Origin: a virus
Length of the DNA: 22,535 nt
Virus record (IMG/VR): IMGVR_UViG_3300043331_000079
Span: 1 to 22,535 of that record
Reading direction: 5' to 3' (one strand)
A program made the translations under genes and the position numbers. Of this stretch, positions 11,128-18,723 are shown one piece after another. Position 1 is the first letter of the stretch; every line of letters begins with the position of its first letter. Under the pieces are notes generated by a model. It saw only the letters and a program-made list of their open reading frames with translations, ran no database searches and had not been told where the DNA came from.

Positions 11128-11787
11128 TCAGAGACTGCGGTGCACCTGATGGCCGATCATGACCTTGGCGGACATCTTGCGCTTGAGGCTCCATTCCGCC
11201 TCCTTGATGCCCTCCGAGGCCAGCGCCATGCCGTCCTTGTCGCGGATCACGTCGCGATAGAGCAGGAATTTCGCCTGGTGCCGGATCAGCGCCTCGCCAT
11301 CCGTCATCCACCCGTTGGTGTCGTTGTCACTGGAGAGCGGGTTGGGTCCGAGCCGCGCCAGCCCGTTCAGCCGCAGCTCGTAGGCGTCATCGGGCGTAGG
11401 GAAGATGCGCAGCTGGTCGCCATAGATCGTGTAGCTGTCCGGCTGGCTCTGAAAACTGTCGTCCTGCCACTCGTTGACGTACTGCTGAGTGCGCGGGCAG
11501 AGCCGATAGGGCATGCTGTCGACGACGGCCACGATGTCATCGAGCTCCAGCACCAGCTCGCCGGTTGCAACCGCGGCACCGGCGCTGGTTAGCAGCGTCG
11601 GCGAGGCCATGGTGTAATACTCGGTGCCGGCCACCGTGTTGATGGTCCAGCGCGTCTCGTTGAAGGCGAAACGCTGGCCTTCCCAGGTCTGGATGGCGCT
11701 GTTGATCGACTGCCGGATCTGGCTGGCGAGGTCGTCGCGCAAGGTCTCGTCAGCGATGCGGGCCTGCATCGTGGCGAAGGTGGTCAC
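11128..11787 (-). CDS. Head-tail adaptor protein (gp4-like)
   Basis: 219 residues from a GTG (11785-11787) overlapping the previous stop as GTGA. The N-terminal helix pattern MQARIADETLRDDLASQIRQ, then SINSAIQTWEGQRFAFNE, is characteristic of phage adaptor proteins that dock under the portal. A beta segment and G-T-E-Y-Y follow. The QPDSYTIYGDQLRIFPTPDDAYELRLNG stretch, the WMTDGEALIR motif (about 164-173) and a C-terminal helical bundle complete the usual family layout. In P22, gp4 holds this position in the assembly, between portal and gp10; P22 gp4 also has muralytic activity, for which nothing is seen here. The gene is followed 1 nt later by the gp10-like gene. Confidence 0.65.
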   Translation of the reverse strand: MTTFATMQARIADETLRDDLASQIRQSINSAIQTWEGQRFAFNETRWTINTVAGTEYYTMASPTLLTSAGAAVATGELVLELDDIVAVVDSMPYRLCPRTQQYVNEWQDDSFQSQPDSYTIYGDQLRIFPTPDDAYELRLNGLARLGPNPLSSDNDTNGWMTDGEALIRHQAKFLLYRDVIRDKDGMALASEGIKEAEWSLKRKMSAKVMIGHQVHRSL

Positions 11788-11993
11788 TCCGCAGCCTCTT
11801 CTGGTCGCGCCTTCAACCGCCTGAACTCTTCTCGACGTTCGATTTCTGCACGAATGCGTCCAAGCAGGTCTCGATCTCTCGTTGTGTTAGCGCCCTTGGC
11901 TTCCTCTGCCTCAATATGAAAGAGCAGGAGCGTATGCAGCGTGATCAGATCGACCAGACTCAACTTCATGCTCGGCGTGTAGTCTGTTGCCAT
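11784..11993 (-). CDS. Small charged helical protein of unknown function (69 aa)
   Basis: Not recognised. The ATG at 11991-11993 is chosen because GGAG lies 8 nt upstream of it; an in-frame GTG at 12000-12002 overlaps the previous stop as GTGA but has no Shine-Dalgarno spacing. Residues about 9-28 (MKLSLVDLITLHTLLLFHIEAEEAK) form an amphipathic helix rather than a clear membrane span. Residues about 35-69 are a charged Glu/Arg-rich helix ending in EEAAE. The final GTGA couples it to the adaptor gene. GC is about 52-53% over 11821-11940 (63/120 by hand count), noticeably lower than its neighbours, so it may be a later insertion. Confidence 0.65.
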   Translation of the reverse strand: MATDYTPSMKLSLVDLITLHTLLLFHIEAEEAKGANTTRDRDLLGRIRAEIERREEFRRLKARPEEAAE

Positions 11994-11998
11994 GCGTC

Positions 11999-14233
11999 TC
12001 ACTCCGCAGCCTCAGCAGGCTGTGAAACCCACGGCATGCCGTAGGCTTCGACCATCGCAGCGATCTGCCGGTCGTTGCCGCCGTCGCGGTTGTGCTGCGA
12101 CCACAGCCCGTCGGCGCCACTCGGCAGGTCGTAGATCGGCTGCGAACTGTCGATCAGCCGGAACGTCGAGCCGCCCAGCAGCCCCATCCAGTACCACCAG
12201 ATGTCATCGTTCATCGGGCAGAGCGAGCGCGCCTTGGCCATGTCCAGGACCTCCGGCGCCATCGCGCAAGGCGGCACCAGCATGCCGTGGCAGGACGTGG
12301 GGAACAGCCCCGAATTGCTATCGCCAGGCTTCCACGCCAGCGGCCAGGTGTTATAGCTCCCAATGCCCCCGTCAGGCGTGTTCGTCGGCAACCGCCCGCG
12401 CCGCAGCAGAATCTCCTTGTCGCTGCGATGCGCCTCCGCCAACTCTCGCAGCCACGACGGCGGATAGACCAGGTCGTCGTCGGCCGTAACGATATAGGCG
12501 TCCGGGTACGCCTCCAGCGCCGGCACCAGCTTCTTGTAACTGCGGATGTCCTCCTCCACCTGCCGAATGGTGAGACCGTCCATGCGCAGGACGGTGGAAG
12601 GCAGCGCGGCGAATTCAGCTCGCGTCAGCCACAGCACCGTAGCGTCCGGCTTCACGTCCTGGTTCAGCAGGCTCTGCAGCGCGTGGTGCAGATGCTTGTA
12701 GCGCGGCGGGTGCGACGTGAGTGACACCACCACCGGCTCCAGCCTCGCCTTCGGTGCGGCGAACGCCTTGGCCCTCGGATCGGTCCCCGACGGCACGGCT
12801 ACCGCCCAGCGCTTCTTGCCGCCTTCCCTCACGTCGACGGCATGCCCGGCCTTGCCCAGCATCTCCAGCAGGCCGACGCTGGTGTCCACGTCGTCGATCA
12901 GCAGTGTCGCCGCCCTGATGCGCTCGCGCAGTGCCCATAGCGCCGTCTTGCGCTGCGGCGAGTGGTAGGGCCCATCCACCAGCACCAGCCCGAAGCTCTC
13001 GGGCAGCTCCGCCTCGCCGTAGGCCACCTCGTCGGCCTTCGGCCCGATCGGCACCAGCGGAGCATAGTGCAGCACGACGTTCTTGATCGCGAGCCGGTTC
13101 AGGATTGCCGCCGTGTCGCGCCAGCTTTCCAGGTGACACTCCAGCACGTGCACAGCCAGGCCGCTGCCCTGCAGAGCCAGCCCTAGCACGACTGTCGTCA
13201 ACCCGGAGCCCATCTCCAGCACCGGCTGCGTAGCCTCGCGCGCCCTGGCGTACAGCTCGGCTAGCGCCTCAGCCTCCAGCGTCCATGGGTTGTTCATCGG
13301 CGAGCGACCAGAGATGATGTCCCAGCCCTCGAACAGCGCCGCGAACGTGTCAGGCTCAGCCTTACCGGCTCGCAGCACCTCTACAGCGTCCAGGAACGGC
13401 TGCGGCAGCACCCGCTGCTGACGGCGCAGGTGGTTGCCGAAATGGCCCTGCCAGACCTGGGCGCCGGCGTGGCTGAACTGCATGTCCGGGTCCACGAACA
13501 CCCGGAAGCCGGCCGCACGCGCCTTCAGGCACAGCATGTAATCGCCGGACTGGTAGTCGTTGCCGGCGTGCACCTCCTTGGGGATGCCGACCTCGCGCGG
13601 CCAGCCGCGTTCCACGATGCGCGCCACCGAATGATTGGGGTTGGCCTTCTCGTCGTCCGGATTGGGCCACCACGCCCGCGGGAAGCCCGACTTCCGCAAG
13701 CCGCCGCCGCGCTCGACCTCCGTCAGCTTCTCCAGCACGGGACGGCGAATGCGCATGAACCCAGTCGCCGCCTTCTCCATCTCGAACAGGTTGTTCTCGT
13801 TCTTGCCCAGCCCCTCGAACTGCCCGGCCACGAACGGGTAGGTCTCCGTGTCGTTCTTGTGCCGGTAGACGCCGGCCACGACGTCCCCGGGCGCCATCAG
13901 CAGATCCAGCACGCCCTTGGCATCCCATCCCATGTCGGCGTCGATGAAAAACAGATCGGTGTAGGTGTGCCGGCAGTTGGGGCTGTCGCTGCGGGGGCGC
14001 TCGAATTTCAGAAAGTCCCTGATGATGCCGTTGCGCACGTCGTCGACGTGGCAACTCCCCTGCACCATCAGAAAGTCGAACTGGACCCCGGCGCGCGACA
14101 GTGTTTCCACCGTCGCGGCCATGGACTTGGAGTGGTTGCACTCGGGATGATTGGTCGCCGGCGTCGCCAGCAGCACGTAGTAAGGCGATGGCGCGACCGG
14201 CGCCGCCCCGATGTACTGATAGTAACCACTCAC
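11999..14233 (-). CDS. Glycosyltransferase-methyltransferase-glycosyltransferase fusion (744 aa)
   Basis: The start is the GTG at 14231-14233 (GTG AGT GGT TAC TAT), with GGAG 8 nt upstream and the previous stop 13 nt away. Domain 1 (about residues 15-290) is a GT-A-type glycosyltransferase: YYVLLATPATNHPE, then DLFFIDADMGWD with DAD at 98-100 as the metal/nucleotide-sugar motif, then AGNDYQSGDYMLCLKARAAGF near 223-243. Domain 2 (about 318-490) is a class I SAM-dependent methyltransferase: VLEMGSGLTT at 338-347 (motif I), an acidic LEC after the next strand, and LVLVDGPY at 416-423. Domain 3 (about 500-744) is a second GT-A glycosyltransferase: VVSLTSHPPRYKHLHHALQS, VLWLTRAEF, TADDDLVYP with DDD at 585-587, and CPMNDDIWWYWM near 672-683. 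The acceptor is unknown; capsid, decoration or fibre proteins, or host glycans, are possible. Domain assignment is by motif reading. Confidence 0.8.
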   Translation of the reverse strand: MSGYYQYIGAAPVAPSPYYVLLATPATNHPECNHSKSMAATVETLSRAGVQFDFLMVQGSCHVDDVRNGIIRDFLKFERPRSDSPNCRHTYTDLFFIDADMGWDAKGVLDLLMAPGDVVAGVYRHKNDTETYPFVAGQFEGLGKNENNLFEMEKAATGFMRIRRPVLEKLTEVERGGGLRKSGFPRAWWPNPDDEKANPNHSVARIVERGWPREVGIPKEVHAGNDYQSGDYMLCLKARAAGFRVFVDPDMQFSHAGAQVWQGHFGNHLRRQQRVLPQPFLDAVEVLRAGKAEPDTFAALFEGWDIISGRSPMNNPWTLEAEALAELYARAREATQPVLEMGSGLTTVVLGLALQGSGLAVHVLECHLESWRDTAAILNRLAIKNVVLHYAPLVPIGPKADEVAYGEAELPESFGLVLVDGPYHSPQRKTALWALRERIRAATLLIDDVDTSVGLLEMLGKAGHAVDVREGGKKRWAVAVPSGTDPRAKAFAAPKARLEPVVVSLTSHPPRYKHLHHALQSLLNQDVKPDATVLWLTRAEFAALPSTVLRMDGLTIRQVEEDIRSYKKLVPALEAYPDAYIVTADDDLVYPPSWLRELAEAHRSDKEILLRRGRLPTNTPDGGIGSYNTWPLAWKPGDSNSGLFPTSCHGMLVPPCAMAPEVLDMAKARSLCPMNDDIWWYWMGLLGGSTFRLIDSSQPIYDLPSGADGLWSQHNRDGGNDRQIAAMVEAYGMPWVSQPAEAAE
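12002..12005 (-). promoter_or_regulatory. Shine-Dalgarno deciding the 69-aa gene start
   Basis: GGAG on the minus strand, 8 nt before the ATG at 11991-11993, within the last codons of the fusion gene. The competing GTG at 12000-12002 would begin on this site with no spacing. Confidence 0.6.
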
Positions 14234-14246: not shown

Positions 14247-14669
14247 TCAGGCTGGGGTTGATCCAAACAACGACGACACCACGTAGGCAACCGCGATGTC
14301 GAACTGTCCCGCAGTCGGCTTGGTCGTCGTCATGCCGGTCTGCGTGATGTAAAGGTCGGTGTCCTGGGTGAAGTTCACCGACTTGATGCCGGTCGGCACC
14401 TGCACCGTCGTCGAGGTGCCCTCGGCAATGCCGGCCGCCCCGACCAGCGAGCTCTTCGCCGCCGTGGTGCCTATCCAGAGCTGCCGGGCACCGCCAGCCG
14501 GCGCCTCGGCCTGCTTCTTGTAGACCGCTGTCACCATGGCTCCCTTCGGGATGGTCCCGATCAGGAACTGGGTGCCGTTGGTGTCCGTCGCGTCACCGGC
14601 GTTGTGCCGGATCTCGAGGAAAGAGACCTGGAGACCTTCAGGCTTCCGGGCCGTTGTTCCGACTGCCAT
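14247..14669 (-). CDS. Head decoration / capsid-associated protein candidate (140 aa)
   Basis: 140 residues starting 12 nt after the capsid gene stops. A strong TAGGAGG ribosome binding site (AGGAGG at 14675-14680) lies 5 nt before the ATG. The sequence is mostly beta strands and Thr/Gly/Ala-rich loops: LQVSFLEIRHN, TQFLIGTIPKGAMVTAVYK, TTAAKSSLVGAAG, then VNFTQDTDLYITQTG and GQFDIAVAYVVS. That is the look of small immunoglobulin- or jelly-roll-like decoration proteins often found directly after coat genes. The very good ribosome binding site suggests high expression, as for a stoichiometric capsid component. No specific family was recognised. It would also be a plausible target of the adjacent glycan enzyme. 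Confidence 0.65.
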   Translation of the reverse strand: MAVGTTARKPEGLQVSFLEIRHNAGDATDTNGTQFLIGTIPKGAMVTAVYKKQAEAPAGGARQLWIGTTAAKSSLVGAAGIAEGTSTTVQVPTGIKSVNFTQDTDLYITQTGMTTTKPTAGQFDIAVAYVVSSLFGSTPA

Positions 14670-14681
14670 CGTGGCCTCCTA

Positions 14682-15821
14682 TCAGGTGTGCGCCGCGGCG
14701 TAGGACGACATGACCACGGCCGCGAAGTCGTGGTCGGTGCTGCTCTCCGTATACGTGGACTTCTTCAGCCCGGAGATGCAGCCGGCCTTAACGCCCAGCT
14801 TGTTGCCGTAGTCGAAACGCTGCTCGAACCAATCGTACGTCGACTGGTCGTGGCCGATGCCGAAGCCGGCAATGGCCGCCTGCGCCCCGCACAGCACAGC
14901 ACGGCGAGTGTTGCTGACCGCCAACCCGGTGGAGCTGCTCACACCCTTGGGGATGTGCGTGCTCTCGTGCAGGATGCAGCCGTTGTACTCGCCGAGCGCC
15001 CCGTTCAGGATCGGATTCTCGTCGCCCTGCCCGCCCTGCAGCCTGGAACGATGAATGTCGTACCAGAGGATCGGATGCGCGGTGTCGGAGCTCGACTTCG
15101 TGCGCAGGTCCGTCACCTGATACGGGTGCAAAAACACCACGAAGTAGGGCTTGCCGCCGACCATCACGGGACGGATAGGGTTCCTCCCGGTGCCGGTCTG
15201 GGCAACCTTGGCGTTCTCGATCGCCTTGTCGATCAGGATCAGCGAGAACACGTTGGAGGTCGTCAGCGACTGGTCCGCCGTCAGCCCGGAACCGGCGCGC
15301 ACGACACGGGTAGGCGCCGTGATCGTGTTGTGGCCGTTGTACTCCGAGCCGGTGGCATCGGTGTCGCTGCCGGCGGTGCCGGTGGTGTTGCCGGGGGTGA
15401 AGCCGCAGAGGTGATAGAACCCCCAGATGTCCCAGCGCTCGGCCCACCAGTCGGCGAGGCCCTGCATGCCCTCGTCCCGGAGCGAGAAGGTGACGCGCTG
15501 CTGCGTCATCTCGCCGGCGGAGCGGACAGCATGCCGGAGCTGGTTGATCTCCAGGCCCTGCACGAAGGTCGAGAGCGACTCCTCGTTGCCCTCCAGGGTC
15601 GTGTCGCCGACGACGCCGCGGCCCCTCAGCTGCTTGCGCAGCGTGACGTATATCTTGTCGCCACGCTGCCGGTTGGTCTCGTTCTTGACCGTGATGATGC
15701 TGTCTGTGCCGGAGCCCATGAAGCGCTTGAGGTAGGTCCTCTTCAGCGCCTCGCGGTCCAGCTTGCGACTCCAGAGCTTGACGCTCTCCGGGTCGTTGAG
15801 ATTGTAGGTCGTGTCTGCCAC
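14682..15821 (-). CDS. Major capsid protein, N4-gp56 family
   Basis: 379 residues from a GTG (15819-15821), with GAGGTG 7 nt upstream. The N-terminal half has the recognisable family pattern: SVKLWSRKLDREALKRTYLKRFMG (14-36), GDKIYVTLRKQLRGRGVVGDTTLEGNEE (54-81), a helix with EINQLRHAVRSAGEMTQQR (91-109), and WWAERWDIWGFYHLCGF (125-141). This is the N4-gp56-type (DUF4043) coat family, presumed HK97-fold, which builds the icosahedral shell. The gene stands behind the scaffold gene and before a decoration-protein candidate, as expected. It is the only gene in the operon with a long untranslated leader, suggesting that capsid expression is raised or separately controlled. Confidence 0.85.
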   Translation of the reverse strand: MADTTYNLNDPESVKLWSRKLDREALKRTYLKRFMGSGTDSIITVKNETNRQRGDKIYVTLRKQLRGRGVVGDTTLEGNEESLSTFVQGLEINQLRHAVRSAGEMTQQRVTFSLRDEGMQGLADWWAERWDIWGFYHLCGFTPGNTTGTAGSDTDATGSEYNGHNTITAPTRVVRAGSGLTADQSLTTSNVFSLILIDKAIENAKVAQTGTGRNPIRPVMVGGKPYFVVFLHPYQVTDLRTKSSSDTAHPILWYDIHRSRLQGGQGDENPILNGALGEYNGCILHESTHIPKGVSSSTGLAVSNTRRAVLCGAQAAIAGFGIGHDQSTYDWFEQRFDYGNKLGVKAGCISGLKKSTYTESSTDHDFAAVVMSSYAAAHT

Positions 15822-17505: not shown

Positions 17506-18723
17506 TCAGCTCATCTTGGCCCGCCAGCCCTGCTTGCGCAGCGCGCCGACAGCGGCCCTGAAACGCCTCTCGTACCCGTATGCCCCGCTGCGGGAGACGC
17601 GCCGCAGCTCGCGCAGCTCCTCCTCGTCGGCACGCAGGGCGGCCTGTACAGCGCGTGCGTCACGTCCGGCGAGAGCCGCCTGAACGCGCGCCGCCTCTGC
17701 CGCTCTGCGTGCGTCGTCCTCGTCCTGCAGGCGACGAATGGCGGCCTGCAGCTGCATGTCGAGCACACGCTGCTGCTCGGCCGCGACGGCGGCAAGACGG
17801 GCCTCTTCGGCGCGCTTCTGCCGGAGGTCCTCGCGGCGTGCCGCGACCTCCAACTCGTACGCGCGCGCCCGCTCCGCCTCCAGCTTCTTCGCCCGCTCGC
17901 GCCATTCGGCGTCGATCTCATCGAGCCACTGCTCGAAATAGGACTGCCACCACCAAGGTAGCGTACGCTTGGGCTGCTTGTGCCCGCCGCCGCCGTCGAC
18001 ACTGTCGGCAAAGACCAGCAGGCGCTCCACGCGGCCCTGCAGAAACGCTATCGCGAGCTGGGCAGATTCAATCTGCTCATCGGTCCACCCATGCCCCATA
18101 ACGGCGCCGTGGAACCGCACGTTGGGCTTGTTGCCGATGCCTATGCCGGTTCCTGCCGTGCTGGCCGTGCCGGCATCGCCGGTATCGTAATCGCCGTCGT
18201 CTACGGCAAGCCGGCTCGCTGCGCCGGAATGCCGCTCGGTAACCACGAAATCCACATCCTGGTCCGGGATCGGCCGAGTCACGTCACCTTCCACGCCGGA
18301 GAAGATGCGCACCTCGTCGGTCTGCTCGAAATAGAGCTGCCCGTTGATACTGGCCGTGTCCCGGAACAGCCGGCCGACGTTGTCGGTGGACAGCCGCCGC
18401 CAGCCCGACACACGGTCAAGGGGCTGATCGAACGTCTCGGCAAAGGTCACCTGCACCGCGTCGTCGACGCCGTCGAACTCCACCCACTGCACGCCACCGC
18501 TGGCCTGATAAATGGGACGGCTGCCGGCCACCGACTGCGCAAGCGCGCCACCGTCGGAGCCGAGCCCGGCAATGAATCCGACCGTACCACCGACCGCCAC
18601 ATTACCCAGGCCAGCATCCGTAGGCCCGATGTTGCCAGCAGTAGGAAGCCACAGCCCGACCGGATCGAGCGCCAGCAATTCCGCCACCGGGTCGTAGTCG
18701 CTCGGGACCGGACCGAACGGCAT
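17506..18723 (-). CDS. LamG/concanavalin-like domain plus long coiled coil (405 aa)
   Basis: The ATG overlaps the portal stop as TGATG, with GAAGG 7 nt upstream. Residues about 15-235 read as a LamG/concanavalin-A-like jelly roll: QASGGVQWVEFDGVDDAVQV (73-92), alternating strands such as INGQLYFEQTDEVRIFSG, and the typical closing helix WTDEQIESAQLAIAFLQGRVERLL (213-236). A Gly-rich hinge (DGGGG near 243-247) and a Trp-rich patch (LPWWWQSYFEQWLDE) follow. Residues about 265-385 are one long Ala/Arg/Glu helix, almost certainly coiled coil, with a basic C-terminus. LamG folds often bind carbohydrate or proteins. Between portal and scaffold this could be a minor head or neck protein. The specific role is unknown. 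Confidence 0.7.
   Translation of the reverse strand: MPFGPVPSDYDPVAELLALDPVGLWLPTAGNIGPTDAGLGNVAVGGTVGFIAGLGSDGGALAQSVAGSRPIYQASGGVQWVEFDGVDDAVQVTFAETFDQPLDRVSGWRRLSTDNVGRLFRDTASINGQLYFEQTDEVRIFSGVEGDVTRPIPDQDVDFVVTERHSGAASRLAVDDGDYDTGDAGTASTAGTGIGIGNKPNVRFHGAVMGHGWTDEQIESAQLAIAFLQGRVERLLVFADSVDGGGGHKQPKRTLPWWWQSYFEQWLDEIDAEWRERAKKLEAERARAYELEVAARREDLRQKRAEEARLAAVAAEQQRVLDMQLQAAIRRLQDEDDARRAAEAARVQAALAGRDARAVQAALRADEEELRELRRVSRSGAYGYERRFRAAVGALRKQGWRAKMS

Follow-up and report, generated by a model that had tools for sequence, protein, structure and literature searches.

The window analyzed here is the whole 22,535-nucleotide stretch of an uncultured virus record (IMG/VR IMGVR_UViG_3300043331_000079). 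Its minus strand encodes a 744-residue protein with three predicted domains: an amino-terminal glycosyltransferase (GT1); a central methyltransferase (MT); and a second, carboxyl-terminal glycosyltransferase (GT2). The gene runs from a GTG start codon at 14233 to a TGA stop at 11999. A GGAG sequence lies eight bases 5' of the GTG (TGACGGAGACTGCCTAGTG), in line with the initial annotation's statement that the gene has its own ribosome binding site, and homologue alignments begin at this same GTG.

The structural genes of the window all lie on the same strand as the GT1-MT-GT2 gene, in agreement with the earlier description of a co-oriented set of capsid and tail genes. Their order is large terminase subunit, portal, major head protein, 140-residue protein, and GT1-MT-GT2, followed by a 72-residue reading frame, an SU10-type adaptor, a phrog_3287 virion protein, and tail-fiber-like proteins (Table 1). 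The gene had been placed between a decoration-protein candidate and the head-tail adaptor. The 140-residue protein does adjoin it, but the 72-residue reading frame (11784-12002) precedes the adaptor; in four related loci (L009, L011, L013, and L014) the adaptor directly adjoins the GT-MT or GT-MT-GT gene. The 140-residue protein (14247-14669) has only weak matches, to families of unknown function, and a decoration role for it is plausible. Elsewhere in the window, a 405-residue protein without family match (17506-18723) lies between the portal and a 332-residue protein, a position from which it is absent in locus L012.

Table 1. The fusion gene, its predicted domains, and its neighbors in the window.
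Feature	Position	Strand	Basis or remark
GT1-MT-GT2 fusion protein, 744 residues	11999..14233	-	Open reading frame, ribosome binding site, full-length homologues of 67-75% identity
GT1, residues 1-275	13409..14233	-	Predicted GT-A glycosyltransferase, phrog_1574 / STIV A197-like
MT, about residues 300-483	12785..13336	-	Predicted COMT-type class I SAM O-methyltransferase
GT2, about residues 500-735	12029..12736	-	Probable KfiA-like glycosyltransferase
Carboxyl-terminal EAAE and stop	11999..12016	-	GAGGCTGCGGAGTGA; in relatives, the matching DNA forms the adaptor gene's ribosome binding site and overlapping start
140-residue protein, Ser/Thr 21%	14247..14669	-	Possible decoration protein, acceptor candidate; directly after coat
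Major head protein	14682..15821	-	Acceptor candidate; phrog_334 E 8.5e-82; PF13252 E 9.1e-64
SU10-type head-tail adaptor	11128..11787	-	PF24175 E 6.5e-19
72-residue reading frame, itself ending EAAE	11784..12002	-	Separates the fusion gene from the adaptor

The 744-residue reading frame had been read as one real gene, and comparison with its relatives bears this out rather than chance: full-length identities are 67-75%, motif residues are near-invariant over 24-33 relatives, and dN/dS falls at 0.16-0.39 (GT1, 0.16-0.29; MT, 0.29-0.31; GT2, 0.32-0.39). Each of the three domains is thus under purifying selection. All of the motifs originally listed are present: DAD (98-100); LEMGSG (339-344); LVLVDGPY (416-423); TADDDLVYP (583-591); and NDDIWWYWM (675-683). 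A hydrophobicity scan of the protein found no stretch hydrophobic enough to anchor it in a membrane, the best 19-residue mean being 1.56, beside the SAM-binding motif; the protein is predicted to be soluble. Pfam and NCBIfam scans of the single protein gave matches too faint to identify the domains, for which alignments were required. The full-length structural model (pTM 0.54) leaves the domain arrangement uncertain, and the linker between MT and GT2 (residues 484-496) is variable and of low confidence.

Because Foldseek and VIA searches with the full model yielded mainly methyltransferases, a separate AF2 model of GT1 was built from a 33-row alignment (pLDDT 91.8, pTM 0.91). Its closest solved relative in the fold search is STIV A197 (Z 15.8 over 162 residues, 2.4 A), followed by the lysyl hydroxylase LH3 (Z about 14.6), Mnn9 (13.8), and many further GT-A enzymes at Z 11-15; the first domain of PBCV-1 A064R (A064R-D1, 2p6w) is among the Foldseek matches (E 7.8e-4). 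STIV A197 is also the closest match when a sequence profile alone is used (E 1.4e-6), the DxD motifs being aligned, and GT1 matches phrog_1574 at E 1.3e-18. Residues R67, D98, D100, D231, H255, and G257 are invariant across the 33 relatives. In the model, D98 and D100 follow strand 93-97, D231 lies in helix 230-240, and H255 lies in strand 252-256, as expected for a DxD motif behind a strand, a catalytic acid where a helix begins, and a late histidine. Structure prediction, fold search, and the A197 alignment agree with the original reading of the first domain: GT1 is predicted to adopt the GT-A fold with its DAD motif correctly placed for a metal site, and hence to transfer sugar.

The middle domain, annotated from the start as a Rossmann methyltransferase, matches COMT in fold searches (Z 18.2 over 183 residues, 2.8 A), and 11 of the 25 members match Methyltransf_24 (E down to 5.3e-11). 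Conserved positions include E340, G342, S343, G344, E365, the D420-G-P sequence, and D447-D448. Those of SAM motif I and the strand-2 acid (E340, G342, G344, and E365), together with D420, show no exception in the 23 rows that have data; D447 is likewise invariant, and a single row departs from D448. In an alignment to Rv0187, an O-methyltransferase, and to other O-methyltransferases, D420 falls on the Asp motif of Rv0187 and D447-D448 on its Asp-Asn motif. By analogy with COMT-type enzymes, D420, D447, and D448 form a putative metal triad. The model thus predicts that MT is a Rossmann O-methyltransferase of the COMT type.

Full-length fold searches are dominated by the MT domain. For GT2, a seven-row profile matches KfiA (5z8b, E 8.4e-5), the Escherichia coli K5 GlcNAc transferase. 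The match spans the donor half and brings the DDD motifs into register, in support of the claim that the third domain is a second glycosyltransferase. (Matches of the same profile to Prp6 and to armadillo repeats were taken as chance.) Its motifs are D585-D586-D587, D676-D677, and GGND at 718-721. Relatives with identity up to 42% are common in bacteria, and GT2 also matches glycosyltransferases of Gordonia phages. Sequence comparison indicates that GT2 is a KfiA-like glycosyltransferase; unlike GT2, KfiA itself is a free-standing capsule-polymer enzyme with a different acceptor. In Gordonia phages Bakery and Howe, a free-standing GT2 relative adjoins the tail genes on the opposite strand (L003 5818-6738 and L004 5806-6993).

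The GT-MT pair is present in some 20 uncultured P22-like phages; a tblastn scan of genome contigs, queried with the GT-MT profile, yielded no relatives. The initial annotation had proposed a survey of related phages for the same domain order. The full GT-MT-GT order does recur, in L005-L011 (L005 is a near-identical contig and L011 is incomplete), but most relatives lack GT2: GT1-MT alone is encoded by more than 15 further contigs and by one database phage, the P22-like podovirus ctkAd229 (MW202691). A midpoint-rooted GT1-MT tree groups the three-domain genes in a single clade (100/100) nested within the two-domain ones, so GT2 was most simply gained once. The GT2 tree places the phage clade among mostly proteobacterial enzymes (92/94). 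Together, the alignments and trees suggest that GT-MT is the older unit and that GT2 was added later, probably from a bacterial-type KfiA-like enzyme.

Three- and two-domain forms have the EAAE carboxyl terminus in common, and in several relatives (L009, L011-L014) the DNA encoding it also provides the next gene with its ribosome binding site and with a start that overlaps; in the window the same EAAE recurs at 11784-11801, at the end of the inserted 72-residue reading frame. This dual use of the DNA suggests that GT2 was inserted ahead of a shared carboxyl-terminal tail. (EAAE was also considered as a protein motif, and rejected in favor of the next gene's ribosome binding site as the better explanation.)

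Wherever flanks could be read, the GT-MT gene sits within the head genes. In nearly every case it has the head protein on one side and, on the other, the head-tail adaptor or a tail accessory factor; in L049 it immediately precedes the head protein. This placement holds in phages with three head-protein families (phrog_334, phrog_283, and, in L049, phrog_3990). Late expression, which we infer from position in the operon, is the better supported for this conservation. Relatives of the coat gave 408 matches. In the loci around the best 80 of them, a sample whose proportions are not population figures, the slot between the coat-proximal protein and the adaptor holds GT1-MT-GT2 in 5, GT1-MT in 7, an unrelated TPR cassette in 7, and neither in 52; the remaining 9 are cut off or have no recognizable adaptor. 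GT-MT and the TPR cassette never occupy one slot together in this set. Besides TPR proteins, the alternative cassettes include members of the Methyltransf_24 and Methyltransf_11 families, a GT8-like protein, and an NDP-sugar dehydratase/epimerase. From their sequences, the cassette TPR proteins look like TPR-linked GT-B enzymes, their matches to heptosyltransferases being weak (E 0.04 and 0.22). Loci with alternative cassettes are L205 (8606-13150), L207 (8438-12144), L216, L218, L224, L225, and L226; the TPR proteins are about 450-530 residues long, and the dehydratase/epimerase is in L205.

Published precedents exist both for the fusion of two glycosyltransferases with a methyltransferase and for sugar enzymes in phage head operons. 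PBCV-1 A064R likewise joins two glycosyltransferases and one SAM methyltransferase in a single viral polypeptide, and it makes the methylated terminus of the capsid glycan (PMC9614988). It differs in domain order (GT-GT-MT rather than GT-MT-GT) and belongs to a large DNA virus of eukaryotes that expresses its glycan genes early and has a known acceptor, the major capsid protein; the likeness is one of working, not of membership. Reports on cluster F and O mycobacteriophages describe glycosylation of capsid and tail tube (PMC12363180, PMC11600133, PMC11256854), and for cluster O they ascribe this modification to an O-methyltransferase and glycosyltransferases (PMC11600133, PMC12363180). The cluster O phages, among them Firecracker (gp33-36) and Corndog, thus share with the present phage an O-methyltransferase and glycosyltransferases in the head operon, but these are separate genes, located between the portal and the protease and capsid genes, in siphoviruses of Actinobacteria. 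Comparison of the domains with Firecracker gp33-36 by BLAST and hhalign, a weak test made with single sequences, found no detectable homology. STIV A197, the best match of GT1 in both fold and sequence, is a candidate coat glycosyltransferase (PMC4187194); unlike the fusion, it is a single domain of 197 residues from an archaeal virus. Closest in setting is the MW202691 protein, a GT1-MT fusion of 31% identity whose gene lies between the P22 coat and P22 tail accessory factor genes. It lacks GT2, and its designation, 'polysaccharide biosynthesis', is a keyword annotation; a literature search found no functional work on it. In the literature examined, demonstrated phage virion glycosylation is confined to a few actinobacterial phages.

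These observations point, with moderate confidence, to a soluble, late-expressed phage glycan enzyme that has a virion protein as its most likely acceptor and leaves a short O-methylated glycan on the particle. Domain activities, acceptor, reaction order, and benefit are all inferred. GT1 would transfer a sugar from a nucleotide sugar using a metal bound by its DxD motif; the COMT-type domain would O-methylate a hydroxyl of that sugar, presumably with a divalent metal; and GT2 would add a further sugar. The acceptor would be a virion protein from the same operon: the coat, the Ser/Thr-rich 140-residue protein, or a tail component. The phage would presumably benefit from a changed particle surface. 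Three features make this the best reading: a soluble enzyme with two glycosyltransferases and an O-methyltransferase; the company of head genes; and replacement in the slot by other sugar-modifying sets. The history of the gene, with GT-MT the older unit and GT2 inserted once before the carboxyl-terminal tail, means that the order of the domains is a poor guide to that of the reactions, and the 'methyl-capped' glycan first proposed is one of several possible products. Against a virion acceptor, neither the coat nor the 140-residue protein is a dedicated partner: each is just as conserved in loci that lack the GT gene, and the 140-residue family follows the coat with or without GT-MT inserts. 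For this reason the 140-residue protein was rejected as a dedicated acceptor.

Late co-expression is also compatible with an acceptor on the cell surface or a small molecule. The enzyme might, for example, act late in infection on a lipid-linked sugar or a surface glycan of the host, and so mask receptors, exclude other phages, or help progeny to be released. Phages do encode surface-modifying glycosyltransferases, the gtr systems, and the nearest relatives of GT2 are bacterial enzymes resembling KfiA, a capsule-polymer GlcNAc transferase. However, unlike gtr-type enzymes, the protein has no membrane-like segment, its hydrophobic stretches being too weak for an anchor; within the window, no gtr-type set of membrane glycosyltransferase, flippase, and carrier-lipid glycosyltransferase was recognized; placement with head genes is conserved through three head-protein families; and GT1 is most similar to a viral coat glycosyltransferase candidate. 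Host-surface modification is therefore unlikely. It is less probable still that the domains act separately, with GT1-MT making one product, GT2 serving another acceptor, and the fusion only securing co-expression. Such a division of labor would suit the late, single arrival of GT2 via a variable, low-confidence linker, and the two-domain forms that manage without it, but the fusion is kept in all three-domain relatives found, with each domain under purifying selection. Modification of phage DNA, with sugar and methyl placed on a hypermodified base, is very improbable: some phages do glycosylate their DNA, and the class I methyltransferase fold also serves nucleic acids, but the best fold matches of MT are COMT-type O-methyltransferases rather than DNA methylases, the gene is grouped with head rather than replication genes, and the complete relative MW202691, most of whose genes are unnamed, lists no base-hydroxymethylase or hypermodification gene.

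Modification of a virion protein thus remains the favored reading, and the slot invites a broader, more tentative proposal. With chances somewhat short of even, P22-like uncultured phages may share a glycosylation slot, placed in the head operon from the coat-proximal protein to the head-tail adaptor, in which unrelated enzyme sets are exchanged (GT-MT or GT-MT-GT fusions on the one hand, and sets of TPR protein, methyltransferase, GT, and sugar-nucleotide enzyme on the other), such that O-methylated virion glycans would be common and fast-changing in environmental podoviruses. Different transferase sets alternating in a conserved slot would let sequence predict which uncultured phages decorate their particles, and would also allow tests of the purpose of decoration. 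Moreover, the natural GT-MT-GT fusion has two-domain relatives at hand for stepwise comparison.

GT1 relatives occur in other arrangements as well. Those of 455-514 residues (L019, L022, L023, L025, L028-L031, and L054) have an amino-terminal half with WYG..DD motifs, possibly another glycosyltransferase, which would make them GT-GT fusions. Two consecutive GT1-only genes are found in L015-L017, L062, and L063, and in L045 (2707-4751) a GT-MT gene is followed in tandem by a separate GT1 paralogue.
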